Notes under the pieces: generated by a model
Told to the model about the DNA's origin: nothing
What the model saw: the letters and a program-made list of their open reading frames with translations, nothing else
Database searches by the model: none
Program-made: the position numbers and the translations under genes
Part shown: in pieces, positions 5,364 through 59,300 of the stretch
Position numbering within the stretch: the stretch's first letter is position 1
Layout: each line of letters opens with the position of its first letter
Assembly: GCA_905160935.1 (NCBI GenBank)
Contig: CAJHZI010000744.1
Location: 464,501 to 528,500, forward strand
DNA from: Enchytraeus crypticus
Taxonomy: Eukaryota; Annelida; Clitellata; Enchytraeida; Enchytraeidae
Direction: 5' to 3'
Length of the DNA: 64,000 nucleotides

Positions 5364-6310
5364 GTATAGTTCTTATTTATTAAATTTACTAAGTCTGTGC
5401 TGACATATTTACACAAGCTGTAGCATAGCATAAAGCTAAAAAAGCTTAAAAAAAAGCTAATGTTAACGTCAGTTTCCTCACTCGAAAGCGATGTCAGTGA
5501 CGGGCGAGCCCAGGATTTGAACCCCGCACATACTGATCCGCAGTCGAATATCATCGCCACTGGATCCAGCCATAAGAACAATTAGGGTGCCCCTGTGGTC
5601 CGTTACAACATCGAACACTACTGAGACAAATACGAGTCTATGAATAGGGTCACTGATGAAATATATCACTTTTGTCACGAGCCACAAAATGTCCTATGTT
5701 TCTACTGTGAGTCAATTTCGTTTTTCATGTTTTCAATATTCTGAATGTCCGCGATTCTGTGACTATCTCACCCAGAAATCTATCCCTCAACCTCAGAAAA
5801 AGTTTTTTAAAACTGGCGTTGTTAGATACTAAACTCCCTAAGCTAAGTTCGGCATTCTAAACTATAGTCAGTAGAATCCAGCTGATTGAAATCTATCATT
5901 CAGTTTCGGCTCTACTATTTGTCAGCAGTAATTGTGATGAATTAATTGTTTACAACTGTGCTCTTTACTAGCTTTACTTGGACCGGCTTTCGTTTAGGAC
6001 CTTACTTCTCCTCAGCACATTTCTTTGCAGATTGATTTGGGTGAATTGATCTGTAGTGATGTGTGCTGTGAGGAAGTCCCTGACATCATCTTAGGATGAG
6101 GGAACTGGCGTTAAACCTTTATTTATTTATTATTATTATTATTAATATTACTATTATTATTGTATACTCAACGTTCGCCAAGTGGCAGGTCCGGAGTATA
6201 ATTCCACTGCTCTGTTTTCACCTTGTCGCTCTCGTTTACGAGCGACAATCCGCATGTATACCAAGAAATCATTTGACAAGAAATTGATTGATTTTAAAAA
6301 TATAATTATA

Positions 6311-15454: not shown

Positions 15455-18400
15455 CTGCAACATTAAAGTAAAAAGAAATTTTTAGTTCAAGTTCACACTG
15501 GCATTGAATACATTACAGAAATTGATACACAATTTTATAAGAAGCAAAGAAACGTCAAGATCCATTCCTAGCAAAACTGGGATTCAAGGGAAGATGATGA
15601 TGTTAATAGTAATGCAGTAGAATTGAATATAAATGCGAGAGAATAGAGCAATATCAGGACCTGCAACAACACAGGCTGCATACAGCTATCAATATAATCC
15701 CATCGACAGAGCAACCTAATGTTTTGCAGTTTAAATCTATTCAGAGAAGTATTATATTAGCTTTACTAGTTTTTCTACCAATGTTTCCTTTAAAATTATC
15801 ATAGATAATGATTTCATACCAAAAAAAATTATCAGCATCTTAAGAAGAGAAACGATCAAAATTTGGCACAGGTAAAATAAACTAAAATAACACTGATAAC
15901 ACTTCTAAATGTGATCACAAACCGTGCGGGTAGGCTACACAAGTAGCGATGGTCTTAGATGTGGCACCGGCTCCCATATATTCAAAGAACTGAAAGAATG
16001 ATCTTTCATCATCATCATCTATGCATCGACCTCGAGCTTCGCGAATGAAAAGCTTGATTTCCTCGTAGACGACGAAATGCAAAATGGTCTCCGAGAGCCC
16101 GTAGTACGAGGCCGTGATGCCCTTGTAAAAGCCGGGAATGCCGTTCTCTCGGTAGATCATTCGAGCACACTGGAACGCTGTCATACGACTGTTAACTCTG
16201 CAGAAGAATATAGCAAAATCAATAGTAATAAAATAAAAAGTGATAATCAAACATCATCAACATTATCTTCCCTTAAATCCCAGTTTAACCAGGGTCAGGA
16301 TACGAATAGACTTTTAAAAGGAAATAATCAAACACAATAAAGAAACTACAAAGTATACCAACAAAAACAGAACTCTGATGTGTAAAATTCTGTGATTGTG
16401 TAAAAATACGAACTACTTTTATCACTACCATTCTCTCTATCTCTGTAGTGTTTAGCCTAGCGGCAGGTTTAAAGTACAAATTCCCACTCATAAGTTATTT
16501 TCACGCTCCATAAAGAGCACTCCATAGTTAAACAAGGTAATCCCTACACAAAGACTGTCTATCAACACCATAATATAGACTATAGACTGAGAATAATAGC
16601 TGTGTGGTTTTTCTTTTCCTTCCTCAGTTCTTGCTCAGTCGCCTCTTACGAAACGTGCAGTTTACGATTGGTCTATAGTTCAGTGTCCCGTACACAACAT
16701 CGGGGACTGAGGAAATATACTATAGTCATCATCACCATCTTCTTCCCTTGAATCCCAGTTTAACTAGAGTCGGAATACCAATAGACTATAAAAATATATA
16801 GTAATTAACAAACAAAAAATATGTAGAAAGATACAATCACTAAAAGGAGCTTGGAGAATGTAATCCGAAAGATTTCGATATTCATATATCATCCCTATAG
16901 TCTATTAAAAGAGGTCATAGAAGGTAGTATGGAAGGAAATAGAGGCAGATGCAGGCCGAGATTAGGTATGTTAGATGATTTAAAGACCCACCCATAAGCG
17001 AGCATTAAGAGGAAGGCGGAAGACAGAGACGAGTGGAGGAGTTACAGACCATGGATCTGCCAGTAGGCAGTGCACTGAGAAAGAGATGTCATTCCTGACA
17101 GTCCCAGGTAGGGAACAAGACATTACATCTTTTCATTGATTGATTGATTAATCATTAGAATAGCACTACTACTAATTATCGACACCACCACTGGCTGCAG
17201 CCAGTGACCATGTTGGTAAGATATCCGATCTCGGATCAGCATGTGTGGAGTTCAAATCCTGGGCTCTCCCGTCGCTGATATCGCTTTCGAAGTTAAAGTC
17301 GGCTGTAAAGCTTTTATGGCAGAGATTCATGGAAAAATTTGCATACCAGATCTAACTATAAAAAACTACACTGTTACTTAATACTATTAATGGTAATAAT
17401 TATTAATAATTTATCATATGTTATAAAAAATTATTATTATTATTACTACATTATTATATCTGCACACAACCTGACCTGCTGGATATTAATGTTTATAGAT
17501 TGAGAAGCGAACAGCATCAAGTAATTTCAATGTGCAGATGAGAAGCTTTCAGAGGGTTTTATGCTAAACATTACAATACAGCTAGAAAGTAATAAATTGT
17601 TCACACGGCCTTGAAGACCATTGACACGCATGAAATTGTCCCAGTCTACGAGAGTGTAGTAAAAGTGTATCAATGATCTAACGTCAGCATGAAATACTTC
17701 CTATTGTATTGCACATTATATAGACAAAGAAAGTTATGCCGCAAGCAACATACTTATCTGATACGTTTCTTCTATATCTGATATTCCAAAATGACAACAG
17801 TGGTCGATTTTCAAAACAGTCAAATTAAAAACTAAAAAGAAAAAGAAAACATTTGTTTGAATTTTTGTGTATCATTTCTAATGTTTCCAACGCAACACTT
17901 CCATAGTCGGGTCAGCAAAGTATTCGATCAAGAGGCTTCTGGCTTATTAGGCAGATGTGCTAACCAACTAGCCATCGCACTCATGCAAACCTCTCACGTT
18001 ATCATATCAAAACTATAAATGTCAGTTTAAGATTGATTTCCTAATCCATCAGAAATTCGAATAGCGTCATAATTTTATACTACAAAAATAATGGGCATCG
18101 TTTTGGTCTACAACATACAGTAGATCACCCGATTACCAATCGAAACTATTGCAACAGAAGTCACAGTAGGCCTAAACTATACATAGAACTAATAGGACAA
18201 ACTATTCAAGTAAGCAGTTGAAATTACCTTTGGTCCAATTGTAACCGAGTCTTGATAAACCAGATAGGATTTGTACACGTTGAAGACGAAAATCCTGCAA
18301 TATATAAAATTACACACATGATATCATTGAACCTACACATTCTGATCTGCGAGCCGATATCTTACCGACATCACCACGGGCTCCAGTTAAGAAATAAACA

Positions 18401-20243: not shown

Positions 20244-23200
20244 ATCTCTTGATCTACTAGAACTATTTTAGGACAAAGATAAATGAAATTCATCATCGCT
20301 TAACTGATATACTAAACCACATGTAAGAGAAGACTTCAAAATCAATAAATTTATCTTGCAATTAATAATATTTACTGGTTTAATAACCCGAGATAAGAAG
20401 AGGGATTAACAATACCAATAGGCCTATTTCATTTCGTTATGCAAAGGATCTACTGAACCACAGGTAAAAAAGGGCTTAACACGTCCGAATGGCTTAATTA
20501 AAACTCATAGAAGCTAGGCCTGTTACAGTAATAAATTAGAGCTGGTTAATCAGATTTCACTAAAAGTTAACATCTACGACAGACGAATTGACATCTATGA
20601 CAGATCACCGGCTCGGTGATAATAAAAAAACCGTCAGGCAAGATGACAGAAATCTATGGCGGGAAGAAATGTGTTTTCAACTCACAACGGAAAGTGGAAG
20701 TAGTAGAATATGAGCGAAGATCAAGAGGCAGAGTTCCAAACAGTAGGAGCTGAAAAAGAAAATGACCGTCTACCTAAGGAAGTGAGAATATTAGGAATTT
20801 TGAGCAATTTGGCATCGGAAGAACGAAGCTTACGAGAAGTTTGTTATTGGATTAAGAGATTGGAAAGGTAAGAAGGTTTACCAAAGTAAGTGTTTTGAAA
20901 GTTAACAAAGCGATTTTATATTTAATTCTTTGAACCACAGGAGAACTATAACAAGAAGCAATAAAATTTAGCCCGTTACAGGGTTTCATAACAAAATAAA
21001 ACAACCTTTATTCTCTGGTTAAGTAGAATTCAAAAGGAAACCATCTCAAAAGCTAATTTTCACAACCTAATGGCAAGTTTAAGTCTTCTAAATTATTCTC
21101 TTGTGATTGATAAGCTTTTTGATAAATGGAGTGTTCTTACTTAGCGCGAGAGCAAATATTGAGTAAGAATATGAACCTAGGATCTGCCAATTAGAAAACA
21201 CATACAGACAGAAATAGATTTCAAGCGCTCTCTAGTGAGACTGTTAAAAATAACCGTTGGCACATTCTGCACTGTGCTCTCCAATGAGTAAGTCAAACTA
21301 TAATTAACAGTAGAGTAACTGCAGCAGAGAGGAATTTATACTATTAGAGTCCCCGTGTGAAGTAGCCGTCTATAGTACAAATACTAGAACTTGTTATATA
21401 AAGGTAAAAGTTAAAGCTAAGGTTAACGTCAGTTTGCTCACTCGAAAGCGATGTCAGTGACGAGAGAGCCCAGGATTTGAACCCCGCATATACTGATCCC
21501 GGTCAAGTCTCTTACTGATTTCGCCACTGGCTCCAGCCAAAATAATGAACGGGTTAAAACACTTCAGCTTGAACAAGACTACAAACTTAAAGAAACCGCA
21601 AACATAACTCGAATTATACAGTAAATAATTCTGCCGGAGAAATCCTGTTAATGTAAGTAACTGGATAGATCCAGTTTTTTACGTTTCCTTCAAACTCCAG
21701 AAACATAAAAACTGTTTACATACACATAAGTATCTTATAATTTCCCTTTGGAAACATAACATAAAAACAATTAGAATGCTACTGTCATCCATGACAACTT
21801 CGTGCGCTATTAACATCAATCCAAGCCGGTGATCATAGATAAGGTCTAAAACTGTGCAAGCTAGAGATTCTGTTTTTTGTAATAGTAGGTACTAGGTAAG
21901 TTCTAGAATTAAATACCACATTTTAAATTCTCAACTAACTTCGCTAACTATACATGTTTCACAAATATTTTAGCTTTATAGCTAACACATTTTTCCATGT
22001 TTCAAGATAAATCTATTTCGAAAGAAACTGGATAAAAAGGGCATATGAAAAGACACAAAAACCATCTCTTTCCGACATAGGTCAGCATTCTGACCCACCT
22101 ATCTTAGAAATTTGACTTGCACTGTTTTTGATCTAATTTTCTCTTGTGTTCTTGTATACTCAGCCGTCATCATATGGTGCCTTGGCGTCTGTTAATGCAG
22201 AGTCTGCTTGAGACGTCCCTGACAATGCTTTATGGCCAGGATCCGGACGCTAACTTCTAATTGGTTCATTGATTTATTGACATAGCAATAAAAACTGGCT
22301 CTATGACAGCAATGATAGCCATAGTGTCAAAACGTCACTTTCACGTTAACTCCTTCTTACAAGCTACAAAACAGCAACAAATATATTTGCAACGAAATTT
22401 GGAATGGATTCACGCTGACTATAAAAATAAAATTATATTTAAAACGTGTTTAGAAATAGAGGCAAATTCACAAAATTATTCTTTGATTCCAAGCGGTAAG
22501 AGTTTTAAAAGTTATTCGTAAAGCTAACGCTAATGTTAACGTCAATTTCCTCACTCGAGATCGATGTCAGTTACGGGCAAGCGCAGAATTTGAACCCCGT
22601 ACATACTAATCCCCGGTCGAATATCTTACCGGCATCGCCACTGGCTGCAGCCAGTATTCGACGATTTTATATTTAGAATTGGACTTTATTGCGAAATTCG
22701 GTAGCATGAAAGTCACAAGATATACCATACATGGCGTCACATGCAGAGGAATTTCATGCCATTCCATAAAACAGAACACAAGACGGCCAGTGAACTTGAA
22801 ACAAGTTTTTACCAAACACGCTAATAACCCATAGCCACAACAAAACTATTAAACTCTACAGGTACATAGGTCACTAGAATGTTTCGACTCTAACACACAA
22901 AGTACGCGAGAAACATATTCAACATTTAGTGTTTCGCTGAATAGAGCGGCACTAAAAAGAGCATTTACGATCGACGCTCCTACGAAGCTAAAAGACCAAT
23001 AAGCTAATGGCTTTCTACAATAATTCAAAAACGAGCAAAATTTTAACATTATGATTCCACTTACAGATTTAAGATTAAACATTGTTTCTGGTTATGCAAC
23101 ATCCTTACATTAATTTTTAATATGACTAAAGTTTCAACCCTTACGCAAGAAAACTATAAGGAAATGAATATGTAACAGATGGTTAACTTTCCAACAAGGG

Positions 23201-28500: not shown

Positions 28501-30430
28501 GATATCAACATAGTTGATCATTTCACTAGAATGCGTGTTTACTTTTTAAAATTTACTTTTTTGTCATTGGGACTTTGTTTATATATTCTTTTTCAATACC
28601 TTGAATTAATTTCTAAATACATAATTTCTTCTGCAAAAACAGCAGACTAGATATACCAGCAACAGAATTCAGCCAGACTTACTTTAGATACTGGAACAGA
28701 CTGAGAGAAGGTCGGGAGCGTGATATCATCATGGACTCGGCTTCTCCGGCTGAAGCCGCTGCCGCACTGACCGGAGAGGTGGCCGAGGCGTACGAAAGGC
28801 TGCGCACATAGGAAGTGGATAGTCGAGAGTTAGACGCAGAAGTGCCAGCCGCGAGACCTGCTGAGGAAGACTGAAGCCGAGTCTTAACCACTTCTAGAGG
28901 GCAGGTTAACACTGCGCCGGCAGTACCTCCAGCACTACAAAAACACATACAGGCACACATACATGTACACATACATACATGTAGTGTACACATATACACA
29001 AGCATACGTACAGACATGAATCGGATTGAATCCAGAGTTGTTCATCTAATAATTATAATATTGTATATATATAACTGATATTTATTTAATATGATTTATA
29101 TTTTAATTTATTTTTTATTTATATATTATTTTCAATTATTTATAGACAATTGGAGTAGTTACTAATTTCTAATTATTTATAAACAGTGCTCAGGAATAGT
29201 TACTGTTATCTATAATTATTTACAGTAAGTGCTGTTAGAAATTTTATAGTAGAGAACATTGGTATCTTTGAAACAAATTTCTTCTGAGAATTTTTTGAAA
29301 ATTGGGACTTTTCAAAAATGGCATCGCATACAGAGCAACATTCTTGTGCACTCAGTTTACAAATATGGTCGACAGAACTTTTAATTCTACTTGATTAAGT
29401 TCTAACTTCTTGAAGTCCTCAAGGTTAATGATAGGTCAGAGCGATGGAATAGCATACCATACTAATACTAATAAGTAAGTACTAGCCGTAATCAAGAAAT
29501 CTAATAATCTGAAGTCGTAACCCAAAAGCTAAAGCTAACAGCTAATGTTAACGTCAGTTTCCTCACTCGAAAGCAATGTCAGTGACGGGCGAGCCCAGGA
29601 TTTGAACCCCGCACATACTGATTTGCGGTCGAGTGTCTTACCGACTTCGCCACTGGCTCCAGCCAAGCACCAATTAAGTATATAACCAAAAATCTGTGAA
29701 CGTTCAGCACAAGACAGTATCTAAATTAACCGGTATCTAAATACCAGTATTAATTAACCATGTGCATTGTGCACCAATTTTGAGTAGTCAAGGTCAGAAT
29801 CAAGGCCGTCCACTCCTCAGGGACAAACGGGAACTTTTACCCTGGTACTTTGAAACGAGCCGGAAAAGAGTATGGTTTATCATGCTTCGCATTTGCGGGT
29901 ACTGTCGCATGTATATTTTATTTTAACGTTTGAAAATATCGTTGCCCGATACTCAAAATGAAAAACCCTAGGTCAGAATCACAACCCTTTTCTTCACAGC
30001 ATTCAAAAAGAAGTTGAACGTCAGTCAAAAGTGCTATTTTATAGTAACTATCCCTCTATACAGTACAGGTTAGTTTATAAGCTCACTCGTCAAGCATAAA
30101 TAGAGAGAGCAACAGAACTCTACATGTTCTTTAAGTTAAGATAAAATTTGTATTAATTTTTCGTTATTAGGTGAGTTTTCAACAAAAATACTACAGAAAT
30201 CTAGGATCTGATACCAATATGCAGCAGTATATTTGCCTCAATGATAACAATTTAATTAAATATCAGCATATTCAAACCAATTTTTAATAACAAGTAAAAG
30301 TAATTAAAGCATAAATTTATTGCAAGGTCACTAGCATTATATTTATAATTTTGTTAAACGGAAAACTTCGAATAGAATAAAAATATGACACTTACGCTCC
30401 AGCAAGAAAATGAATGGCCCCCGCATCCAT
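15249..30430 (-). CDS. SLC25A36: Mitochondrial pyrimidine nucleotide carrier, SLC25A36/SLC25A33 (Rim2/PNC) type, complete, 7 exons
   Basis: Inner-membrane carrier of the SLC25 family; the PNC/Rim2 branch exchanges pyrimidine nucleotides across the mitochondrial inner membrane. Coding exons in order: 30430-30396, 28934-28683, 24289-24212, 19240-19134, 18294-18228, 16197-15923 and 15454-15249. Together they make 1020 nt, 339 aa, with all phases closing. The three carrier repeats show CPLEVVKTR (about residue 23), NPIWFIKTR (about 166) and YPHEVARTR (about 269). The tryptophan in the second motif is typical of this branch. Other landmarks are [34 protein letters not shown] and [13 protein letters not shown]. 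The first-repeat matrix loop carries a long Ser/Ala-rich insert. The C-terminus resembles SLC25A36 slightly more than SLC25A33; the gene may predate that split. Confidence 0.96.
15571..15603 (+). mobile_element. LINE-E extreme 3' end
   Basis: AACTGGGATTCAAGGGAAGA plus GATGATG only; a short 5'-truncated insertion. Confidence 0.5.
15923..16197 (-). CDS. SLC25A36: SLC25A36 coding exon 6
   Basis: Acceptor TTCTGCAG, donor CACG|GTTTGT. Encodes [38 protein letters not shown] and, after an acidic DDDDE stretch, [14 protein letters not shown] at the head of repeat 3. Confidence 0.95.
16247..16312 (-). mobile_element. LINE-E 3' end
   Basis: Antisense ATCATCAACATTATCTTCCC followed by TTAAATCCCAGTTTAACC; truncated copy. 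Confidence 0.5.
16440..16705 (+). repeat. Repeat family C copy
   Basis: Shares CGGCAGGTT, GCTCCATAAAGAGCACTCC, TTCTTGCTCAGTCGCCTCTTA and CAACATCGGGG with the copy at 62405. Confidence 0.55.
16723..16790 (-). mobile_element. LINE-E 3' end
   Basis: Antisense CATCTTCTTCCCTTGAATCC and CAGTTTAACTAGAGTCGGAA; truncated copy. Confidence 0.5.
16905..17100 (+). mobile_element. LINE-F (RTE-like) ORF2 C-terminus
   Basis: Reads [18 protein letters not shown] and DDLKTHP, then after a stop [15 protein letters not shown], the conserved end of RTE-like ORF2 (RGRPRxGMLDDLK). The shared 3' end ATCTGCCAGTAGGCAGTGCA follows. Confidence 0.7.
17188..17315 (+). repeat. SINE-A copy
   Basis: Sense. ACTGGCTGCAGCCAGTGACC head, B box GAGTTCAAATCCTGGG, and CGCTTTCGAAG. 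Confidence 0.75.
18228..18294 (-). CDS. SLC25A36: SLC25A36 coding exon 5 (67 nt)
   Basis: Acceptor TTGCAG, donor CCAAAG|GTAATT. Encodes [20 protein letters not shown], the second carrier signature. Identified by the signature and by exact phase agreement with both neighbours. Confidence 0.94.
18339..18392 (-). repeat. SINE-A head fragment
   Basis: Antisense GATATCTTACCGACATCACC and ACGGGCTCCAG. Confidence 0.4.
19134..19240 (-). CDS. SLC25A36: SLC25A36 coding exon 4
   Basis: Acceptor ATTTTGCAG, donor TCAGCAG|GTTTTC. Encodes [20 protein letters not shown] through HIFAAASAG, at the start of repeat 2. Confidence 0.94.
19325..19500 (-). mobile_element. LINE-E ORF2 C-terminus
   Basis: The minus strand reads [19 protein letters not shown], a TGA where other copies have Trp, then [12 protein letters not shown] and a stop, with GATGAT tail. 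The GRPQxxWDxxIKKDMK motif is a LINE C-terminal hallmark. Confidence 0.7.
20179..20240 (+). repeat. CA/TA microsatellite
   Basis: CA repeat changing to TA. Confidence 0.95.
20658..20695 (+). promoter_or_regulatory. E2F/ETS-like promoter motifs ahead of the candidate micro-gene
   Basis: GGCGGGAA at 20658-20665 matches the E2F consensus. CGGAAAGTGGAAGT follows at about 20688 and resembles ETS-type sites. No transcript evidence is available. Confidence 0.25.
20710..20971 (+). CDS. Candidate 62-aa two-exon micro-gene nested in SLC25A36 intron 3 (function unknown)
   Basis: I do not recognise this protein. Exon 1 (20710-20867) starts [20 protein letters not shown] and continues with a charged, leucine-rich stretch containing [20 protein letters not shown]. 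It ends exactly at a strong donor, GAAAG|GTAAGAAG. A 73-base intron (20868-20940) with a T-rich end and CCACAG acceptor leads in phase to 20941-20971, which adds nine codons and TAG. An AATAAA at 20960-20965 overlaps the end of the frame. An in-frame TAG precedes the ATG. A GGCGGGAA motif, like an E2F site, lies about 45 bases upstream, next to CGGAAAGTGGAAGT. A frame of this length can arise by chance in AT-rich DNA. The balanced composition, donor and upstream motifs are why I list it. Confidence 0.33.
21411..21540 (-). repeat. SINE-A copy
   Basis: Antisense. CCAGGATTTGAACCCCGCAT B box and GCCACTGGCTCCAGCC head. Confidence 0.75.
22522..22655 (-). repeat. SINE-A copy
   Basis: Antisense. GCAGAATTTGAACCCCGTAC B box and GCCACTGGCTGCAGCCAG head. 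Confidence 0.75.
23306..23596 (+). repeat. 19-bp self-complementary minisatellite, about 15 copies
   Basis: Units alternate between ACTGAACGAGATTCAGTGA and ACTGAACGAGAATCAGTGC. In the first type CACTGAA and TTCAGTG are reverse complements, so units can fold into hairpins or pair with each other. Confidence 0.93.
24212..24289 (-). CDS. SLC25A36: SLC25A36 coding exon 3
   Basis: Acceptor TGTTGCAG, donor TTCAAG|GTATTG. Encodes the end of repeat 1, including [20 protein letters not shown]. Too short to stand out as a long reading frame; found by family match and phase. Confidence 0.95.
24893..25070 (+). repeat. SINE-B copy, degenerate
   Basis: Retains ACATCTCAGACATTCATT, AAACTGCCTAATGGTTAAGC and TTAAAGTGATAGATATCATT of the family body. 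Confidence 0.5.
26138..26396 (-). mobile_element. LINE-E ORF2 C-terminus, longest copy
   Basis: The minus strand reads [20 protein letters not shown], then a GRP-like CRP motif with an in-frame [16 protein letters not shown] and [10 protein letters not shown], ending in a GATGATGAT tail. LRWYGH is typical of LINE C-termini. Confidence 0.75.
28312..28543 (+). repeat. SINE-B copy (tRNA-derived)
   Basis: A-box-like TAGCATAGGGGTAATGTCAT, a weak B box at TTGGTTTGAATCTCAG, then the body with TGAGAGTAAAATCTCAGAAA and ATGGTCTAAATTGCCTAACG, ending near AATGCGTGTTTAC and a T run. Confidence 0.7.
28683..28934 (-). CDS. SLC25A36: SLC25A36 coding exon 2
   Basis: Acceptor TTTTTGTAG, donor CTAAA|GTAAGT. 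Encodes [20 protein letters not shown] followed by a Ser/Ala-rich loop of about 50 residues, longer than in vertebrate relatives, ending LFQYLK. Confidence 0.95.
28935..30395 (-). other. SLC25A36 intron 1
   Basis: Contains a SINE-A copy (29526-29665). Otherwise AT-rich sequence without a recognisable exon. Confidence 0.7.
29526..29665 (-). repeat. SINE-A copy, near full length
   Basis: Antisense. AGCCCAGGATTTGAACCCCG and GCCACTGGCTCCAGCC. The tail is AAAGCTAAAGCTAACAGC. Confidence 0.78.
30396..30430 (-). CDS. SLC25A36: SLC25A36 coding exon 1
   Basis: Encodes [12 protein letters not shown] with donor GGAGC|GTAAGTG. It is short, as in vertebrate SLC25A36, whose first exon also stops just after the LFAG motif. 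The ATG sits in the context TTATCATGG. Confidence 0.88.
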
Positions 30431-36951: not shown

Positions 36952-37482
36952 ATGGCCAAACTTTTCAAACATTTTGGTATAGGAGGCGGTGTAAAGAAGT
37001 CAGGCCAAGATAGTCAAGATCCACTTCAGTGTAAGGCGGCTGCAGGAGTCTGCTGTGCACACGATTTTTCACACGGAAGCTCTCATAAGCGAAGTAGCGT
37101 GCTAGTAACAGCACATTCACCTCCTGATCACCACAAATCGACAGCGGGCAGATCCAGCGCTGGTTGTGTTTCAAGCACCGATCTCGATATTCGTCGGCAT
37201 TCAGATGCTTCCAATATAAACAGTCTGAGACGTACGAAAACAGCATATTCTGACTGGTCACCATTGCATGTTTCTGGACGAGGAAAGGATTCAAGGGGGT
37301 TCAGTGTTAGTGGTATGGGATCTAAGCGCTATAGAGGCGGTGATGATCCTCGATTTGCTGGAAAATCTAGTGGCTGTTCGACTAGATACTGTCAGAGATG
37401 TGAAGAAAGCAGAAATATTCCAGAACGAGCCTCGTCGGTTACCTCGTTGACATTGCCAAAGCATGGGACCAGTGTAGCTGAA
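36952..37482 (+). CDS. SHB: SHB coding exon 1
   Basis: 177 codons ending VAE, phase 0, donor GAA|GTAAGT. Mostly low-conservation Ser/His/Arg-rich sequence after the conserved MAKLFKHF start. Contains YSDW, a possible tyrosine site. Confidence 0.9.
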
Positions 37483-37545: not shown

Positions 37546-40500
37546 GCATTATAGTGAAATGATCAACTATGTTGATATCTATCACTTTTAATACCACATG
37601 TTTAAACCGTCAGGCAATTTAGACCATTTTCCGTGTAACCAGTCCAGTGAATGTCCGAGATTTTACTCTCAGATCAGCACGGCTGGGATTTGAACCCATG
37701 CGGGTTCAATTCACCTAAGGATCTGTCATTTAAAGCTTCATGACGTAACCCCTACGCTATTAAGACATTCAATAATAGGATATCATCATGCCCTTTTGTG
37801 GTTTCTGTTGATCTGTATGTTACTGATTAGATAGTCATTTTGTGTAGATTTTTTTTATTTAGCCGAGCTAGCGACGCAGTGTTTCAGCAGTATTTTTTTG
37901 CTTATTGTCTTGGTTTTTTTGACATTTAACTTTATTCATGAATATATCTAAATTAGCTGTTGACATTAGTTATTTACTGGCTGGAGCCAGTGGCATTGTC
38001 GGTAAGGTACTTGACTGCGGATCAGTATGTGCGGGGTTCAAATCTTGGGCTCGCCCGTCACTGACATCGCTTTCGAGTGAGGAAACTGACGTTAACATTA
38101 GCTTTTAGCTTTTTGCTTTTTATCACTATTTGTCATTGTAATGCCTAGTATTAGATTCATGGCATGCAACACTTACATATAGTTATGTGTTTACAGGATG
38201 ATTAATAATATATCTTGGAAAGGAAGAACTAAGGAGATGAAAACTAGCAATTGAACAAGAATACTCTATAGCTTGTGCTCTATGTCATGTGTAAAATTAG
38301 ATCAATGAAAGAAATAATAAAGTAAGCCATCAATGCCAGTGCACTAGCCTCATGGAATTACTCGACCAATAGCATTGCATAAGTGTTCTTTTAGAAAAGA
38401 AACATTAATTATGTCTAACATAGGGCTAATCAAGGGAACATAAGACTAATCAAGAGAACATAAGACTAATCAAGAGAACATAAGACTAATCTAGAAAACA
38501 TAAGACTAATCTAGAAAACATAAGACTAATCAAGAGAACATTAGACTAATCAAGAGAACATAAGACTAATCAAAAGAACATATGACTAATCAAGAGATCA
38601 TAAGACTAATCAAGAGAACATTAGACTAATCAAGAAAATATAAGACTAATCAAGAGAACATAAGACTAATCAAGAGAACATAAGACTAATCAAGAAAACA
38701 TGAGACTAATCTAGAGAACATAAGACTAATCAAGAGGACTTGAGATTAATCAAGAGATCATAAGACTAATCAAGAGAACATAAGACTAATCAAAAAAACA
38801 TGAGACTAATCAAGAGAACATAAGACTAATCAAGAGAACATAAGACTAATCAAGAGATCTCTTGATGGACCAGTTGAAGAGAAGATTTAAATCCTGAACT
38901 TCTTCTCTCTTTTCAGTATTCAGTTCTCGTCTTCATTCTTCTTATCCGAAAGCAGAGTCATAGTATTTACTCCTTTGAACATCATTTGTTCGAAACTCAT
39001 GTAGTGAAGATATATTGATTAAAACTAAGTTTAATGTCTGTTGCTGTATCATAGTGGAACTGTCAGAGGTGGTCTAGTTGGAATTTGAACTGATAGTCTC
39101 GTGCTTATCTGGCTAGCATGCTATTCCTTCAGCTGATATAAATATTTGTAATTGTTATTATTTTCAGCCGCTACTGAGAAGTGACTACTGTGATCCGTTT
39201 GATTTGAAGCTTGACCCGGAAGCAAGTGACCTACCTCCACCAGTGAGTGGTGGTGGCACTGGAGATGAAGGCATGCCAGAGAACTCTGAACACATTTCTT
39301 CACCTGCTCGTGTCGATGATGAGTATTCGATACCATATGATGTCAAGATGAAAGGTTTGTTTGCTAGTTCCTGTAGTTTTGGTATCAGATTAAATACTTG
39401 AAGGGCATCAGTTGGTTGTAACAATTGATACTTTTTGTTTATATCTTTAATATTACATAAGATGATTAGGCTACATCCGTTGATGTGAATTTAGCTATTA
39501 TATGAAGTACTTATGACAGAGTTTAGCCTGGGGCCCGATTGGTTAGAGTTGCTAATGAGAATGGTCATGTTTTTGTTCTTGGTACTGCCCTTGAGAAATA
39601 TTCTTTTGTAATTAACACTGACATTATTCTTTCTATTAGTCAGTGTTCTCTCTTATTCAATTATTGCTTAACAATACTTGTGATATTGATACACACGATG
39701 TTTGATAATGTTTTGTAAAGAGATCTGAAATAAATTTAAGGGATATCAAAGATTATCCCGATGAAAGATATAAGAAAAAATGAATATGAAATGAATTACA
39801 CTTTTCTTGATTAAATATTTTAGACATAAAACCACCAGAGCCCGGTGATAATAATGAAGCCACAGTTGTTGGACTAGAGTCCACTGCCAACGACTCTGAC
39901 ACATACGCTGAACCCTACGAATGTAGCCAACCTAACACGTTAACGGGTAAAATAGATAAACTACGCCACCACAATTCAGAAATATCGCACGAGCAGGAAG
40001 AATCAGGTGATGAGCTATTGAAGAAGAAGAATGCAAACCCAGATACAGAGAAAACCGATGTGATAAGTGATTGCACGACTGATGAAACATTGAACCTGGT
40101 GGCCAGAGATCCTGCTGAAGACGCTGCTGAGCAGCTACCTGACGCTGCAGAGCTACCCAGCAACGCCGCTGACGACAGCTGCCGGACTTACGATGAGCCG
40201 TGGGACTTGTACGCAACCAGACGCGGCATCGAGAGCAAACTGCGAGAAGCTTCAAAGCACTGGGACGGGCACTCTGGTTGCCGTGACGATGAGAGGACAG
40301 GTTGTTGTCATCAACCCGTTCACTCGAGTCTGCGAGGAGTTTCGCTGGAGGGCTCGGCAGACCTGCAGGAATACGACGAACCTTGGGACAGGAAGGCCCG
40401 GGACATCGAGAGGAATCTGATTGTCGCTAAATCGGCCAAGGAGGCTGCACGAATGTTGAGGGAGCCAGTGGGAGGTGGAGGGGTTGGGAGTGATGCCCCC

Positions 40501-43500
40501 TCTAGTAATAGAAACTGTAGGATTGATGAGAGGACGTTGGAAGAATATGAAGCCAGGCTTGATGAACTAAGGCTGACAGCTTCTAAATATTCTGGTTTGT
40601 GAAGTCCTGAAATTGTGTTTTAAATTGTTTGCATGATTAAGTTAATAAATAATTATGTTAATAAAATGTGTATTGTCATAGTTATGTTTTAAACTGTATA
40701 TTGCTGCACAAAATGTTTGATATATTGATACACATAATTTTTGATAACATTTGCCACAATTATATTTGTAATTAAGTGATCTTTGTAAATAAATTTACTA
40801 CATAACGAGAAAGATATATAGGATATTATGTAAAGTATGTATTATCTCTAGAAAATTGTCTAGATAATTTATCTTATATTTATCTGCTATAGTAAAGAAA
40901 GTCTAGTATATACTCGGTAAGAAAATTCGTTTCTATGCACTTTTTGCGATATTTTAGTCCTTTCATCCGAAGTAGTGGAAATATAGTTTGCATCGGAACA
41001 ACAGGATACTGTGGCCTATTTATCCCATATGACCCTGATATAATCCTAAGAAATTTGTATGACATTATATTTTAGTGTGTACTGAAAATTAACTTACAAA
41101 TTACAAATGTTAACATAATTTTGAAATCTTACAACTAATGTTAAGCTCTTTATGTCAATTTTATTAGCCTTGAATTTTTCAAAATATCCAAATACAAATA
41201 CTACTACTATTATACTAATTATTAGATTAGAATATTAAATTTTAATAATATTGGAGTGATTGATTTTAATGAAACTCTTTTCATACAACATTGACCCATT
41301 TTAATATTTTACACTACGGCTTGATGTCTTAGCTGAGATGGCCTATTGTTGTGTAGTAAATTGCATTGTTTCGTTATAATAAATTTGTAATTATGATTAA
41401 TATAAAGTAGTATATATCAAAAATAAATATATGTGCGATTTAAGCGAAGTTATGTATGATTAAAATAACGTTTTTTAAATGAAGCTGTTGTTTAAATTGT
41501 GTTAAGTGTAAAAAAAAAAAAAAAAGAGAGCTAATGGAACTGAGTTACGCTGAGCTTCGCCCACCTCTTTAGCAAAGAGGTGGGCATTTTTTCGGTATTT
41601 TCCTTTCAAATATGTCCATTTGTCCTATTGGCATGAAATAAGCATTCGACCTACTTAAGCCTATGATGAAATAACTATTTTTATCTAATCTGTGGCTGCT
41701 CAGTTATTCTATTCTGTGGCTCTAGTCCACTCATGCGGTTAGACTGTTTTAAAATGTTTTAAATAAAGGTGTTTTGTGATGATGTATTTGATCAGGAGCA
41801 GGCAGGTGTGAGTCATGCCTGAGCCACTCGTCCTCTACATCGTTGTCAGCAGTCACAGGGGCTGGCGGAGGAAACACGCCACTCTGCGACAATCATTCGC
41901 CGAAGCGTAACAAGTGGAACATTTCGTCCACCTCGTCGCCGTGGACTGTCCAGTGCGAGTGGGTGGATACGACTGTGCCGCTGGAAAAACAAGGGTAGGA
42001 TTTGTCATCAGTTTGAAGTTCTAATGGGTCAGTGGTAGATGTACAGTAAATAAATTAATTTCGCTTACCGGTGTGTTTTATAGCTTGGGATAAAACTAAA
42101 AAGCTAGTGTTAACGTCGTCAGTTTGCTCACTCAAAAGCGATGTCAGTGACGAGCGAGCCCAGGATTTGAACCCCGCACATACTGATCCGCAATCGAGCA
42201 TCTTACCGATAGCGCCACTGGCTTCAGCCAACAGGATACTGGCTTATGATTGGTTGATTGTAGATGATTTCTCAGATACGTCAGTAGAGTAGAGGTGGAG
42301 TCATTGCTGAGAAAAGACATATGATTGGTTGATTGTAGATAGTTTCAGGGATCAGTCAGTAGAGGCGGAGTCATTACGGAGAATAGACTAATGATTGGTT
42401 GATTGTAGGAGGTTTCACGGATCAATCAGTAGAGTGGTGGCGGAGTCATTACTGAGAGTAGACTTATAATTGGTTGATAGTAGGTGGTTTCACGGATCAA
42501 TCAGTAGTGGAGGCGGAGTCATTGCTGAGAGTGGACTTATGATTGGTTGATTGTAGATAGTTTCAGTGATCAGTCAGTAGAGGCAGGGTCATTGCTAAGT
42601 GTAGACTTGTGATTGGTTGATTGTAGGTGGTTTCATGGATCAATCAGTAGAGTGGAGGTGGAGTCGTCACTGAGAGTAGACTTATGATTGGTTTATTGTA
42701 GGTGGTTTCACGGATCAATCAGTAGGGTGGAGGCGGAGTCATTGCTGAGAGTACACAAGGACGGTAGCTACCTGGTTAGAACCAGTGAGAGTAATAAATC
42801 AGATTTCTCTCTGTCATTGAAGTAAGTGTAGCCTACAATAGTTTACCACTATTTTCTATTGACATTTCAAAGAAATACTAAACCTATCAATGTGCACTGG
42901 TTTTGTAAACGTAATGTGATAGAAATAAAAGTTAGTTCACTATTGGTAAAGAAATTTCACCTCACTGAGGTAAAATTTAAATAAAAGTATGGGCTCATAG
43001 CACATCCATTACATTTGACTGTATCTAATAGTGTCATGTGTGTGAGCAATTGTGCAATTGTTTTTTTCAGTTGTTGTATTTTGCACACTATGACATAATT
43101 AATAAACTCAAATATAGATTGTTGATATTTGGTTTGGCTGCGTATTAAATACATGTAAAATGTACATGTAAAATGTGCTGCATGTAAAATGATTTTGTAA
43201 CTTTGTCTTGATGTGTATGTAGTATTTGCATATTTATTTGACTGCATATATACGCTTACAGTGAATTTGCACATTTGTGTGTATCTGTATGTATGCCTGT
43301 GTGTGTGAGAGAGAGAGGGAGAGAGAGAGAGAGAGAGAGAGTGAACTATGTTTTATTTCAAAAATACACTCAATACACTGTGTGTACAATTATCTACTGT
43401 AGGAGCTCACGTGGTTTCATGCACATGAAGATCGTGAAGCGAGATGGTCAGCTGATACTGGGACAGTTTAGTCAGCCGTTTGATGACATCCCGCAGATGA

Positions 43501-43586
43501 TCAGCTTCTTCACGACCAACAAACTTCCTATCCAGGGCGCTGAGCACATGTATCTTCTCTTTCCTGTTCACAACGAACTCTTGTAG
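36952..43586 (+). CDS. SHB: SH2 adaptor protein of the SHB/SHD/SHE/SHF family, complete, 6 exons
   Basis: Cytoplasmic adaptor linking tyrosine kinases to downstream partners through phosphotyrosine motifs and a C-terminal SH2 domain. Exons: 36952-37482, 39168-39354, 39824-40594, 41796-41994, 42702-42821 and 43403-43586. They total 1992 nt, 663 aa, with every phase closing. The N-terminus MAKLFKHFGIG resembles the family's MAKW start. Family tyrosine motifs: YCDPFD (184), YSIPYD (230), YAEPYE (267) and YDEPWD (362 and 423). VPLEKQG leads into the SH2 domain at residue 564: WFHGSISRVEAESLL, then YLVRTSES with the phosphotyrosine-binding Arg, SLSLKSSRGFMHMK, KLPIQGAEHM and a YPVH-like end. The start is supported by Kozak context AAACCATGG and an in-frame TAA 24 bases upstream. 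It may be an invertebrate ancestor of all four vertebrate paralogues. Confidence 0.94.
37545..37771 (-). repeat. SINE-B copy, SHB intron 1
   Basis: Antisense. Contains GGGATTTGAACCCATGCGGG (B box) and the CCCCTACGCTATTAAGAC head. Confidence 0.7.
37976..38122 (+). repeat. SINE-A copy, near full length, SHB intron 1
   Basis: Sense. CTGGCTGGAGCCAGTGGCAT head with A-box-like sequence, GCGGGGTTCAAATCTTGGGC B box, and tail ACGTTAACATTAGCTTTTAG. Confidence 0.8.
38421..38857 (+). repeat. 20-bp minisatellite, about 22 copies, SHB intron 1
   Basis: Unit TAAGACTAATCAAGAGAACA with scattered substitutions. The array ends in an 18-bp perfect palindrome, ATCAAGAGATCTCTTGAT, at 38849-38866. Confidence 0.95.
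39168..39354 (+). CDS. SHB: SHB coding exon 2
   Basis: Acceptor TTATTTTCAG, donor AAAG|GTTTGT. Encodes PLLRSDYCDPFDLKLD and ends DEYSIPYDVKMK; YxDPFD is a family hallmark. Confidence 0.92.
39824..40594 (+). CDS. SHB: SHB coding exon 3
   Basis: Acceptor AATATTTTAG, donor TTCTG|GTTTGT. About 257 codons, acidic, with YAEPYE and two YDEPWD motifs followed by similar segments (ATRRGIESKL and KARDIERNL). This suggests an internal duplication of the motif block. Confidence 0.93.
40644..40665 (+). promoter_or_regulatory. Candidate intronic poly(A) signals in SHB intron 3
   Basis: Two AATAAA hexamers (40644-40649, 40660-40665) lie soon after an in-frame TGA at 40600-40602 that would be used if exon 3 is not spliced. 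A T/G-rich stretch follows. Use would give a protein ending SKYSGL without the SH2 domain. Confidence 0.35.
41559..41592 (+). other. Perfect 12-bp hairpin followed by T-run, SHB intron 3
   Basis: GCCCACCTCTTT (41559-41570), loop AGC, AAAGAGGTGGGC (41574-41585), then ATTTTTTCGG. Preceded at 41509-41525 by a run of about 17 A. Confidence 0.85.
41796..41994 (+). CDS. SHB: SHB coding exon 4
   Basis: Acceptor TTGATCAG, donor CAAGG|GTAGGA. Encodes a Ser/Gly-rich linker and then CEWVDTTVPLEKQG, the segment immediately before the SH2 domain. Found by the VPLEKQ match and phase. Slightly different acceptor choices nearby are possible. Confidence 0.86.
42091..42231 (-). repeat. SINE-A copy, SHB intron 4
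   Basis: Antisense. GCCCAGGATTTGAACCCCGC and CACTGGCTTCAGCC. Ends about 15 bases before the splice-acceptor minisatellite begins. Confidence 0.78.
42246..42760 (+). repeat. ~75-bp minisatellite made of the SHB exon 5 splice acceptor and SH2 exon start
   Basis: Seven units starting near 42246, 42322, 42392, 42467, 42540, 42610 and 42685. Each has TGATTGGTTGATTGTAG or a close variant, then a version of GTGGTTTCACGGATCAATCA, then a version of GTGGAGGCGGAGTCATTGCT. The last unit is the true intron end and exon 5. Two subtypes exist (GTGGTTTCAC and ATAGTTTCAG), in an order suggesting that a three-unit block was duplicated. Confidence 0.93.
42702..42821 (+). CDS. SHB: SHB coding exon 5, N-terminal half of SH2 domain
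   Basis: Acceptor GATTGGTTTATTGTAG, donor TTGAA|GTAAGT. Encodes WFHGSISRVEAESLLRVHKD, then GSYLVRTSESNKSDFSLSLK, including the alpha-A arginine (ISR) and the FLVR-type arginine (YLVR). The intron end plus the first ~60 bases of this exon are tandemly repeated just upstream; only this last copy continues into a full exon. Confidence 0.93.
43403..43586 (+). CDS. SHB: SHB terminal coding exon 6, C-terminal half of SH2 domain
   Basis: Acceptor ATCTACTGTAG. Encodes SSRGFMHMKIVKRDGQLILG, PFDDIP, TTNKLPIQGAEHM and LLFPVHNELL, then TAG. Confidence 0.95.
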
Positions 43587-53328: not shown

Positions 53329-56300
53329 CTAAAAACAGTTACAAAATAATAATAATTACGATAATTTTAAATTTGATGATTCCGAATATAAAAATAAAGC
53401 TAATGTTAACGTTAGTTTCCTCACTCGAAAGCGATGTCAGTGACGGGCGAGCCCAGGATTTGAATCCCGCACTTACTGACCCGCGGTCGAGTATCTTACC
53501 GACATCACCACTGACTCACGCCAATAGCCATGCAGCGATTCAACACGTTTCTGTGCTTTACATGCTTTTAGTGGATAAAAAGTTAACCGTAATACTTAAT
53601 GATTCTAGCAAAATAATGATAACAATATCAAAAGTTATAAACATTTAATGAAAAAATCTCTATCTCTTTAGCTCAGGGTCCCCTACAGCCCATCATATTT
53701 AAAAATTGGTGATATTGTTAATAGCAATCCTGACTAAGCCTTCCAAACGTCTAAATGCATCATAGTAAAATAGTAAATAGTAAAATAATTTAATCATGGT
53801 TAGAAAACAATTCTTATGTATTCTTTATTGTCTTCAAATTATGATCGCTTGTGAATGGTAAACGATATAGTATAAAGGACTGCACTAGTCTTAAACATCA
53901 ACGTATAGTATAAGAATACACTTTTATAAACAATTATTAAAATTGCCGCTGCGCAATACAAACAACAGGAACTGTAGTGGTCAATGTTATCATTAACTTT
54001 CAGTATAAAATAAGCCATACAATTCGAGTTTCAAACTAATAAGAAGCAACTCCTGTAGTAGATACTCATAATTAATATACATGTATCTTAAATTACAGTT
54101 GACATCTTTTGACTAATATCACTTTGAAATACTGGTTTAAAGTTCATTTAAGATTACAAACCAGGTCTGAATTGTCCCGGAGGTCCATGCCTAGGCCCCA
54201 TACCTCCCATGTGAGGCGGGGGCATGGGAGGGGCCATCAAATGAGGCGGGGGGGCACCTAGGTTGAAGAAATCAGGTGCAGCTGGTAACTCTGTGTTCAT
54301 AGAAAATACAGAATAACACAGTAATTAGAATACACATAAAGATAATAACACTAAGATAAACCACAGATAGCAAACAATAATAATTAACATTAAGATAAAG
54401 CGATAGCTGACAAATAATAACACAGAGATAAAGCACCGATAGCTGACAACAATAACAGTAAGATAAAGCACATATAACAAACAATAATACTAAGATAAAA
54501 CACAGCAAACAATAATAATTAAGACAAAGCACAGAGAGCAGACAATAATAACACAAGATAAAGCACATATAGCTGACAACAGTAAAACTAAGATAAAGCA
54601 CATATAGCTGACAATAATAACACTAAGATAAAGCAGATAGCAGACAATAAAACTAAGATAAAGCACAGATTGCTAACAATAAAGCCATAGAAGAGATGTT
54701 AACGTCAGTATCATCTCTCAAAAGCGGTATCAGCGATAGGTGCGCCCAGGATTTGAACCCACACATTTTGATCACGTATTTGATATCTTAACATCATCGC
54801 CACTAACTCTAGTCAATTATAAATATTAAACATGATATGACATGGGAGCCATAGTCATAGTAATAAATAAATAAGAACTTAAGGCTGATCCTTGGTGTAC
54901 GTACTTCAGTTGCAACCTTAAAACTCTCTAAGCGATCACTCTCCACTACCACACTAGTCCTCACTCTGCTGTACATATCTTTCATTAACTCAACATACCT
55001 CCTATTCACTTTCCTCTTCTTCATAACTTCCCACACCATTTCTCTCGGAACCATATTACGCACAAGCTCCAGGTCCACAAATACCAGCTGCATCTCTTCC
55101 TCATTCTCTTTTTCTTCTGCACCAATTGCCTCAACATAAAGATCGGTTCTGTTGTCGACCTTCCAGGCATAAGCCAAAACTAGTTCCCCTATATGATTTG
55201 TTGAACCTCTCAACACACTCTCTCCCACATCTTTATTGTACGACTCAACAGCTAAATACCTCTATAATTCTTACACACTTGAATGTCCCCTTTCCCCTTA
55301 AATATCAGCACTAAACAACTCCATTCTTCTGGCATCCTTTCCCCCATGTCATCTATTCAAACAGGCATGCAACTCAACCACCCCCTGATATTGACTTATA
55401 GCGAGGAACTGGACGTTAAATTCTTACTGATTGACTTCACCGCTCTCGCACCTAATATCTTTCACACATCCACCGGAATGCCATACAACCCCATTGCTTT
55501 ACTTATATGCATTTTTTCTTTGATGCCCTTCAACCTCTTTAAATGTTACATTGTGTACTTTCATACCCTCAAATCCTTCGCTTCCCACTTCATCTTCACC
55601 GATTAAATTAAATGGATCAAATAGATAGTTTAAAATATTATTACATTAATATCCATTTTCATAGAACCAGAAATGAAGGTTTTGAGACGGACAGATAATT
55701 AATAGAAGTGATAGAAATAGAAAGAATATCTGGACATTGATTATCTGGATTTGAAAAAAGCTGCAAGACAGAGCGAGAGAGATTTGTATTAAAAAGGAAG
55801 CTGTAATTAAATTCATAAAAACAACAAGAGTTACATACGTCCAGGCAGGCCAGGTACAGGCTTGTACTGCTTGTTGGTCGTTGACACCTGGTCAGGATCA
55901 TCAGTCTTATTCGAGGCAACCGAACCCGTAGCGGCTGTAGACTTGCCCCACTTTACATTGAGGCGTCGTCCGTTTATGATCAGCTTATTAAAGGTCTTCT
56001 CTGCTGCCATTTCTGCAGCAGATCTCAATGTGAATTGTATGAACGCGCACTGCTGCCTGGCTACCATTGATATGCTTCGTATCTCGCCAAACTGATAGAA
56101 GTTATTTCTGTTCAACAACACAAATAAATAGAACAATAAAATTTCAATAGGCATATCAGGATTACATAGGCAGTAAATTAGTGGAATTGTATCCGTTTAC
56201 TAAAGTGCACGGAAACATCAGCACAAATGAAATACTTAACAGTAATGAAATACCACAGCTAAATGAAATACTTAACAGTAAGCAAATTATTTAATGGTAA

Positions 56301-59300
56301 ATACTGCAAATTGTAAAGAGCACTTGAATAATAAAGAGCTGCTGGTAGTTGCAATGATGATTTTAGGATTATTAATAGTATAAATGAAACATAAAAAATT
56401 ACTCGTCATCTTCCCTAGAATCCCAATGTAAATATTGTCGAGATTAGAAAATTTTGTAGCCTTCTCTGACACTGGTTTCGAAATTAGTGCTCTGAAACCT
56501 TTTATTCGTCTATTCTTCAGCAACACAGATTCAACACCGTATTTATAATGACAAATTAACATAACACATTTTCCTAACAAAGTTACTGTTAAATCCAATG
56601 TCACGCAAATCCACGACAAATCACGATTACAAACCTGAGATCTTGTTCGTTAACGGTGTCCCCTAGATTACCAACGTACAGAGTGGTGATCGTCTTGTCT
56701 TCTGGGACGTCCAGCGCAGGTAGGCTCTTGTAACGATTCAGCAGCTTATCAGCCACCGGATCATTGATCCCATAGAACCTGTCCTTGATGTTCTGAGTGG
56801 AGAGAGGATCATCTGGATCACTCGGTCGCTCGTGTCTGCATCAATCAATCAAACCAAAGACTGAACCAAAAATCTCTCTTTGATGATCTACACTCTGTCT
56901 ATAGGAACAAGCCACTAGGATTAGTTTTCAGATGATAGAGCTACTTTGATGACGTCCCTGAAACTGCCTTATGGTGAGGAACTGGACGTTAAATTCTTAT
57001 TGCTGGATTGATGATCTACATTCTGTCTATAGGAACAAGCCACTAGGATTAATTTGAAATAATTTTAATTAAAGAAAGGAAGCAACGATTTGTTTGACGT
57101 GTTTCTCAACACTAGACAAGCCAATTTGACATAAATAAACGATAATTTCTAGTCTCTAAATCTAGTAGTATAACAACTTTAAAAAGACCAGAGAGTTTTA
57201 AAATGAAGGTGCTGTATAGGACCTCTCAGTGATGAGCAATAACAACAACAATCTATCGTAAGATTGTTAATGGCACTCAGCATGCTTTTCCTTCAAGAAG
57301 TTACTTTCAATTTTGCTTTGGAATTTAGTACATTTGTAAATAAAATTATGTTTTAACTGACTATATATTTGCAGGAACAGTGAGAGATAAAAGGCAACGA
57401 AATCTGTGATTACTTTCTTATCTTAAAAACTTCAATTATATTCTCAGATGTTCATTCTTCAAAGATAGATTCTTCTACATAGAGATTTGTCATTCCACGT
57501 CAATTCGTTGAAAAACAATTATCTTTATTACCACCATATCACCGTATTCCATTACACGAGACAAAGCAAAAACTCAACAATTTACACTACTTTAATTGAA
57601 AAAATGAATTTAGAGTTAAGCCTAAAGATTAAAAATATCAATTACTATTTAACTATACCAATATTTAATTTGATTTTCTGTTCAAATCTGTTCAATCTGT
57701 TCAAATAATAACAGAAACCGTAAAGACAAACCTGTATGGGCATTCTTCACCCCTTCTACACTCGCCTTTTACCCAGAATGAGCAGATATGTGGTCTGTTC
57801 CTCTTATAGTAAGGAGTTGTTCGTGCTAATTTCAATAGCATATCACTCGGGGCTTGTGCCTTGCCAAGAGATCCAACAGTCGTTGTACCGTCAGTATTGG
57901 CTAGCTGAAACAGTAACAAACAGCATGTTTATGAATCATACGTAATAAACAGCATGTTTATGAATCATACGTAATAAACAGCATGTTTATGAATCATACG
58001 TAATAAACAGCATGTTTATGAATCATACGTAACAAACAGCATGTTTATGAATCATACGTAATAAACAGCATGTTTATGAATCATACGTAATAAACAGCAT
58101 GTTTATGAATCATACGTAATAAACAGCATGTTTATGAATCATACGTAATAAACAGCATGTTTATGAATCATACGTAATAAACAGCATGTTTATGAATCAT
58201 ACGTAATAAACAGCATGTTTATGAATCGTACGTAATAAACAGCATGTTTATGAATCATACATAATAAACAGCATGTTAAAAATAACAAATAGAAGAGATG
58301 TTTTGATTGAGACCAGTGATTCTGATTTTTCAAAACACTAGGAATCTGTGACTTACAACAGAATAAACTATATTTTATTAGTAAGAAAATCTAACCTCTT
58401 TCTCCACTTGCTGTGTGTAGTACTCTTTACCAACGTCTGAAACTGGCATTTCATCCTGTATCTTAAGCGCTGTATCCCTAACCTGCACCGGCAAACCTAC
58501 ACAAAAATAGAAATAATTGAAATCGTCAGCACTCGCATTTATTAGTTATGATATCCCAATATTTCTCTCTCCCTCTCTTAGTGCACTGCCTACTAGCAGG
58601 TCCATGACATATAATGCCTCCACTCATTTCTAAGTAACAACAAATTATTCTATTCGTCAGCAACAACTAATCAATCTACATGCAATAATACATTTAATAA
58701 TCTTTTTTTCAGTTTGCTTTAGACTAATTCAATCTATTCTTTGATTTTTTAAATGTTATTTTATTCAAGATAACAAGAGAATCACGATAACACCACCAAA
58801 ATGATAAGGAATAAAAGGTTTCTTTTCATTTACAAAATAAAGAAACCATTCGCACCTTAATAATTAAATCGATTGGCTACCATCGGATTGACATAGAACA
58901 GACCACCGTCCCATTATGGTTGCTAGTTAAAAAAAATATTAAAGTAGATTAGATTGCAACACATTTTATTACCCACTGGGTCTGTATTGATTTTCAGTTT
59001 ACTACCTCGATTTATTAAAATACAAATCTTTAAAGTAATGAGCACAACAACAAGAGGTCACCGGCAGTGGGAGATACCAAGATAAGATTCCTGTCATATT
59101 ATACTAAGTATAATAAGACAGGAATCACAGGATACTGCAGCTGACATCCACTAGCATTACAAAACTCTAGTTATATAAATACAAACCATATTCTAGATCG
59201 AGCAGACAAGTTTGGCAGATGTTCTTCATCTTGGCGCACGTCTGACAGACCTCCGTCTTCTTGAACCTCATGCGGGCACCGGGGCACCATCTGAATACTG

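Follow-up and report, generated by a model that had tools for sequence, protein, structure and literature searches.

A Tandem Array Spanning an Intron–Exon Boundary of an SHB-like SH2 Adaptor Gene and Its Likeness to the Mirages of Amphioxus

Introduction

Minisatellite-like duplications of intron–exon boundaries, called mirages, have been described in amphioxus, in the globin genes BflGb6 and BflGb9 together with Adh3, TnC and PGBD5 (PMC3087553, PMC3902484). The repeats of lancelet PGBD5 span splice sites, and TnC is mentioned in the same paper (PMC3902484). For BflGb6, a unit identity of 81–100% with AG/GT signals in many units was reported, and 6 and 3 units in two haplotypes, for which RT-PCR suggested regular splicing (PMC3087553).

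Here, we analyzed a 64-kb window, that is, the whole stretch of DNA under study. The original prediction was that an intron–exon boundary of an SHB-type SH2 gene had been amplified into a minisatellite, and TRF, a repeat finder and the joined gene model all bear this out. We consider it probable that the array is of the mirage type: a neutral by-product of replication slippage or unequal exchange, with silent decoy acceptors, in a genome that is probably lophotrochozoan.

Results and Discussion

Host Gene and Its Family

The predicted gene lies on the forward (+) strand and has six exons and GT-AG introns, and the in-frame join of the exons gives 663 codons and a stop. Exon 1 (36952..37482) starts with ATG, ends in phase 0 at a GT donor and joins in frame, as does exon 2 (39168..39354; GT-AG borders), in which SDYCDPFDLK matches DEYSDPFDLK of a Ridgeia protein weakly (E = 0.010). 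Exon 3 (39824..40594), also joined in frame, carries YDEPWD motifs that align with the Ridgeia protein and with protein P0013. Exon 4 (41796..41994) has an open frame to VPLEKQ and ends in phase 2 at the donor GTAGGA, in phase with exon 5 (42702..42821). The latter contains the SH2 start and the SYLVR motif, has the donor GTAAGT, and shows 85% identity to the Ridgeia protein over 40 aa (tblastn). Exon 6 (43403..43586), joined in frame, encodes the rest of the SH2 domain up to the stop TAG (69% identity to the Ridgeia protein over 61 aa). Coding and homology evidence, not cDNA, places the exon 5 start at 42702.

Pfam SH2 was found at residues 564–638 of the joined 663-aa protein (E = 1.2 × 10−16), and the family motifs EPWD and DPFD lie upstream of it. 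A single alignment to the Ridgeia protein covers residues 178–663 with 33% identity, and names among the matches listed include SH2 domain-containing adapter protein B, D, E and F. By its C-terminal SH2 domain and its upstream motifs, the predicted protein is classed in the SHB/SHD/SHE/SHF adaptor family.

The homologue search gave 161 proteins at E-values up to 0.001 among 291 candidates, and the best 120 of the 161 were listed. Among the matches listed, identity over the SH2 region was 70% for Ridgeia piscesae and Tubulanus polymorphus, 69% for Lineus longissimus, 68% for Owenia fusiformis, and also 69% for several tick and Limulus proteins. The highest summed whole-protein scores among the best 120 of 161 belonged to P0013, Ridgeia and Lingula. 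In an SH2 tree of 29 rows, none of them from a lancelet, the protein groups with Ridgeia, Lineus, Tubulanus, Owenia, Lingula and three further rows; the support of 89/95 is moderate, below the star of the tool, and the group is without internal resolution. Measured by path length, arthropod-like rows are closest. Neither a lancelet nor a near-identical relative appears among the matches listed for SHB (120 of 161, best 70%) or for COUP-TF (120 of 1863). As annotated lancelet genomes are public, these listings speak against a lancelet origin, which the mirage literature brings to mind and which is not favoured. The COUP-TF homologues did not single out a taxon. On these sequence comparisons, the likeliest lineage would be lophotrochozoan, perhaps annelid.

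Structure of the Array

We found a tandem array of seven units of 70–77 bp at 42243–42757, which straddles the intron 4/exon 5 boundary. TRF places it at 42243–42753 (period 75, 7.0 copies, score 644) and gives a higher-order period of 218 bp at 42243–42757 (score 763); an ungapped repeat finder returned six copies of a 77-nt reference and missed unit 4. The first 21 nt or so of each unit are intron end (commonest form CTTATGATTGGTTGATTGTAG), and the next 50–55 nt or so match the exon 5 start. The array is present as it was first described, except that it starts at 42243 and not 42246, with the intron part of this length and an exon part of about 55 nt and not 60.

All units are on the + strand. 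Unit 1 (42243..42317) has its decoy acceptor at 42263/42264, unit 2 (42318..42387) at 42338/42339, unit 3 (42388..42462) at 42408/42409, unit 4 (42463..42535) at 42483/42484 with an extra AG at −5/−4, unit 5 (42536..42605) at 42556/42557, and unit 6 (42606..42680) at 42626/42627. Unit 7 (42681..42757) is the functional copy with the intron end and the exon 5 start. The unit lengths are 75, 70, 75, 73, 70, 75 and 77 nt, the end of unit 7 being set by choice. A complete in-frame SH2 exon follows on from unit 7 and from no other unit, in agreement with the proposal of about seven copies of which the last is the functional exon.

Pairwise unit identity ranges from 0.79 to 0.96 over the first 72 alignment columns of the seven units, and the closest to unit 7 are unit 4 (0.96) and unit 3 (0.92). 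Units 1, 2, 3, 5 and 6 carry the 17-nt core TGATTGGTTGATTGTAG unaltered; unit 4 departs from it by two changes and unit 7 by one. The ungapped repeat finder showed a 218-nt block present twice with 89% identity (42288–42505 and 42506–42723), so the duplication of a three-unit block that had been proposed is found. The proposed B-A-A-B-A-A order of subtypes fits units 2–7 if B is the 70-nt subtype, but it leaves out unit 1, which is extra and more divergent. Units 2 and 5 have a 5-nt gap and an ATAG start in common, which fits a duplication running from the middle of unit 1 to the middle of unit 4. The repeated block suggests that the array was unstable in length in the past.

Unit 7 had a top match score of 117 in the upstream intron. 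Dinucleotide shuffles scored at most 30 (0 of 500 reached 117); the array is far above chance expectation. It accounts for 459 of the 707 nt of intron 4. No further degenerate unit was detected in the rest of this intron (41995–42242), where the best score (17) does not reach the median of 300 shuffles (18).

In principle, a shorter repeat could have been expanded, or a longer one collapsed, by mistake during assembly, since the draft genome reportedly contains an aberrant assembly of the BflGb6 mirage of haplotype 1 (PMC3087553). However, the units differ by 4–21% and carry unit-specific indels, and they are therefore not simple assembly copies, though the copy number may be off. We regard such an artefact as very unlikely.

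Consequences of Decoy Acceptors

Unit 3 codes for RFHGSISRVVAESLLRVDL and unit 6 for WFHGSISRVEVESSLRVDL, each followed by a stop; these are exactly the peptides quoted in the original prediction. Unit 4 encodes WFHGSIS before a frameshift and a stop. When exon 4, which ends in phase 2, is joined to unit 1, 2 or 5, the first codon is a stop, the W codon being TGA, TAG and TAG, respectively. The joins to units 3, 4 and 6 give GRFHGSISRVVAESLLRVDL, GWFHGSISSGGGVIAESGLMIG and GWFHGSISRVEVESSLRVDL, each then ending in a stop. All six decoys thus yield a premature stop, at codons 564–585. The arginine of SYLVR, which we take by motif to be the counterpart of the SH2 FLVR arginine, is residue 589 and lies past every one of these stops, as had been anticipated in the claim that decoy use truncates the protein before the phosphotyrosine pocket.

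By the usual rule, a stop located more than 50–55 nt upstream of an exon junction makes an mRNA a target of nonsense-mediated decay (NMD). Because the decoy stops lie 137–557 nt upstream of the exon 5/6 junction, the decoy mRNAs would be NMD targets under this rule.

Splice-Site Choice

Acceptors were scored with a rough, general acceptor matrix, for AGs from base 30 of intron 4 onwards. On this rough scale, the true acceptor in unit 7 has the highest score of 73 AGs (4.57), the second-best AG is at 42084, outside the array (2.30), and the six decoys score 0.10 to 2.08 (ranks 3, 4, 5, 6, 8 and 10). Position −8 is G in all six decoys and T in unit 7 alone. The YTNAY match 18 nt upstream is absent in units 2 and 6, the branch-site-like CTTAT being CTTGT in unit 6.

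Splicing would most likely run to the last copy. Two features should favour this copy: its acceptor is the best one (with T at −8, G at +1 and the branch-site-like CTTAT 18 nt upstream), and it is nearest to the exon 5 donor GTAAGT. However, two of the four other acceptors of the SHB-like gene, at 39824 and 41796, score 0.87 and −0.01 with the same rough matrix, as low as the decoys. Since the gene evidently splices at weak sites, the decoys may be usable as well.

Divergence and Selection

Among the six decoys, the pairwise difference was 8% for the intron part but 20% for the exon part. Of 75 overlapping circular windows, three share the lowest value, and the intron part is one of them. Variable columns numbered 5 of 21 in the intron part and 24 of 54 in the exon part, a contrast that is not significant (Fisher’s test, p = 0.12). 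The result is suggestive only, and we do not claim selection on the intron part of the decoys. By codon position, differences to unit 7 were most frequent at third positions (17/97), with 8/100 and 11/97 at the others, for units that share ancestry.

These data bear on a functional reading, in which the decoys would act as a ladder of poison acceptors: they would be used, less SHB-like protein would be made through unproductive splicing and NMD, and output would depend on array length. The AG kept in six of six decoys, the 17-nt core exact in five of them, the branch-site-like match 18 nt upstream in four and the NMD-type stops from all six are in its favour, and so is the lower divergence of the intron part, tied lowest among the circular windows. 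But the variable-column contrast falls short of significance, and any drifting copy readily acquires stops. In addition, the amphioxus mirages are reported to leave splicing undisturbed (PMC3087553, PMC3902484), which argues against regulatory use and speaks for silent decoys. We think that the functional reading is unlikely.

Neighbouring Features

An interspersed repeat, probably a tRNA-derived SINE, is located at 42098..42231 on the reverse (−) strand and ends about 11 nt upstream of unit 1. Self-BLAST of the 64-kb window found eight other copies of at least 92 nt with 80–88% identity, and three weaker or shorter matches. The other copies of this family of about 130 bp are at 37978–38106, 29530–29666, 21413–21540, 5451–5572, 53388–53527, 22526–22653, 1626–1717 and 17192–17290. 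The assignment as a probable tRNA-derived SINE is based on a box B-like GGTTCAAATC motif judged by eye; ARAGORN found no tRNA. No Rfam family reached the gathering threshold in the window, the one match around the array having 13.6 against 53.5 bits.

Two other minisatellites were observed. The first, of 20 bp × 22, is at 38417–38857 in intron 1 of the SHB-like gene. The second, of 29 bp × 12.6, is at 57913–58277; with 98% matches it is very homogeneous, likely young and perhaps length-variable.

Several other genes are represented in the window. Two ligand-binding-domain exons of a COUP-TF/NR2F-type nuclear receptor lie at 4871–5362 and 8471–8742 (+), each with 79–85% identity to three mollusc proteins among the matches listed, and the domain has a proline- and histidine-containing insertion at its start. 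Mitochondrial carrier exons (Pfam Mito_carr) are at 15915–16250 (−) and 28679–29017 (−), and we presume that they perhaps belong to one SLC25A33/36-type gene. An RRM fragment at 55831–56154 (−) is just under the Pfam cut-off (20.3 vs. 20.7 bits) and may be RBM22, which it looks like. Pfam searches with five further ORFs found nothing.

Origin of the Array

We looked for similar boundary duplications at 11 other exon edges (exon 1 left out; the edge at 43586 is a stop codon, that at 8742 an alignment end, and the COUP-TF acceptor was tested at 8473 for 8471). None stands out, with scores of 16–22 and null 95% values of 19–23; four edges exceed the null 95% value by one point, but this sets the better of two flanks against a one-flank null.

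From 75 TRF rows, those with a period of at least 15 and a score of at least 150 were kept and overlapping rows were merged, which gave nine minisatellites in 64 kb with periods of 19–75 bp and a total of 2832 bp. Under random placement over the ten SHB boundaries, the mean was 0.37 arrays, with at least one in 32% of trials; with the two COUP-TF boundaries included, the mean was 0.46 and at least one array occurred in 38% of trials. These figures are lower bounds, the boundaries of the other genes in the window being outside the annotation. No special cause is needed for the boundary array, because about one third of such windows would have one by chance.

The probable mirage-type origin may be explained as follows. 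A short segment across the intron 4/exon 5 junction would have been tandemly duplicated through replication slippage or unequal exchange, and the array may later have grown by duplication of the three-unit (218-nt) block. As the copies lay upstream of the authentic junction, they would have become part of intron 4. There they may have drifted and gained stops and indels, while the last copy was kept under coding constraint. Occasional use of a decoy, if it occurs, would lead to a premature stop and probably to mRNA decay. However, the intron part of the decoys is more alike than the exon part, and simple drift does not predict this.

The array might instead be an intermediate in exon duplication or intron gain, in which AG|GT unit borders would later act as exon or intron ends. 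AG|GT is found at the junction in units 4, 6 and 7, and the model has been proposed for amphioxus globins (PMC3087553). But every decoy has stops, and about 55 nt of the exon start are all that is repeated, so there is no complete extra exon. Furthermore, GTGGTT fits the usual donor consensus poorly. By analogy with the globins the idea may be entertained, and we hold it to be extremely improbable here.

Finally, two readings may be joined: mirages, instead of being peculiar to lancelets, could be a kind of mutation that recurs in animal genomes rich in minisatellites, and the SHB-like array could in addition be a length-variable poison-acceptor ladder that tunes a signalling adaptor via NMD. 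For the two together we see very little chance.

Comparison with Known Systems

The human gene 6-16 (IFI6) has a minisatellite with multiple splice donor sites beside an exon; the sites are donors and not acceptors as in the SHB-like array. Human segmentally duplicated genes show minisatellite expansion at exon–intron boundaries that affects gene structure, and internal tandem repeats are described as able to create novel introns and thereby alternative splicing in primate paralogs (PMC2812944). The SHB-like array would most likely have no such outcome. The earthworm metallothionein gene is an annelid case: it has minisatellites in intron 1, and one clone has duplicated exon-4 copies that are absent from the transcript, but the excerpt does not describe a splice boundary as the minisatellite unit (PMC12783039).

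The original prediction knew of no described example of an SH2 exon-boundary minisatellite. Among the literature matches listed, in a search not queried for SH2 or SHB, there was no counterexample, but the kind is known from amphioxus mirages (PMC3087553, PMC3902484). Among the matches listed from open-licence PMC papers, no structure called a mirage was found outside lancelets. Hence the kind itself, a boundary minisatellite, is rare but already described; the gene is new as far as searched, and the lineage is probably new.

Seven near-identical acceptors that differ at few defined bases make a natural test of how the spliceosome chooses a 3′ splice site. Gene predictors and short-read assemblers are likely to be misled by the array, and through boundary arrays a gene could come to acquire introns or unproductive splicing.

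The likeness to the amphioxus mirages is close in structure. The SHB-like unit spans the intron–exon junction, similar units stand head to tail, and the duplicates lie beside the authentic boundary, as judged from a single DNA sequence. In BflGb6, too, the 3′ end of an intron and the 5′ part of an exon are repeated beside the authentic, transcribed copy (PMC3087553). The reported unit length is 150–160 bp in BflGb6, 157 bp in BflGb9 and 10–72 bp in Adh3, compared with 70–77 bp in the SHB-like array (PMC3087553). The present array differs from the amphioxus mirages in its gene, which is SHB-like, and in its lineage, which is probably lophotrochozoan. If this lineage holds, boundary arrays occur beyond lancelets, and the class would be wider than the mirage papers describe.
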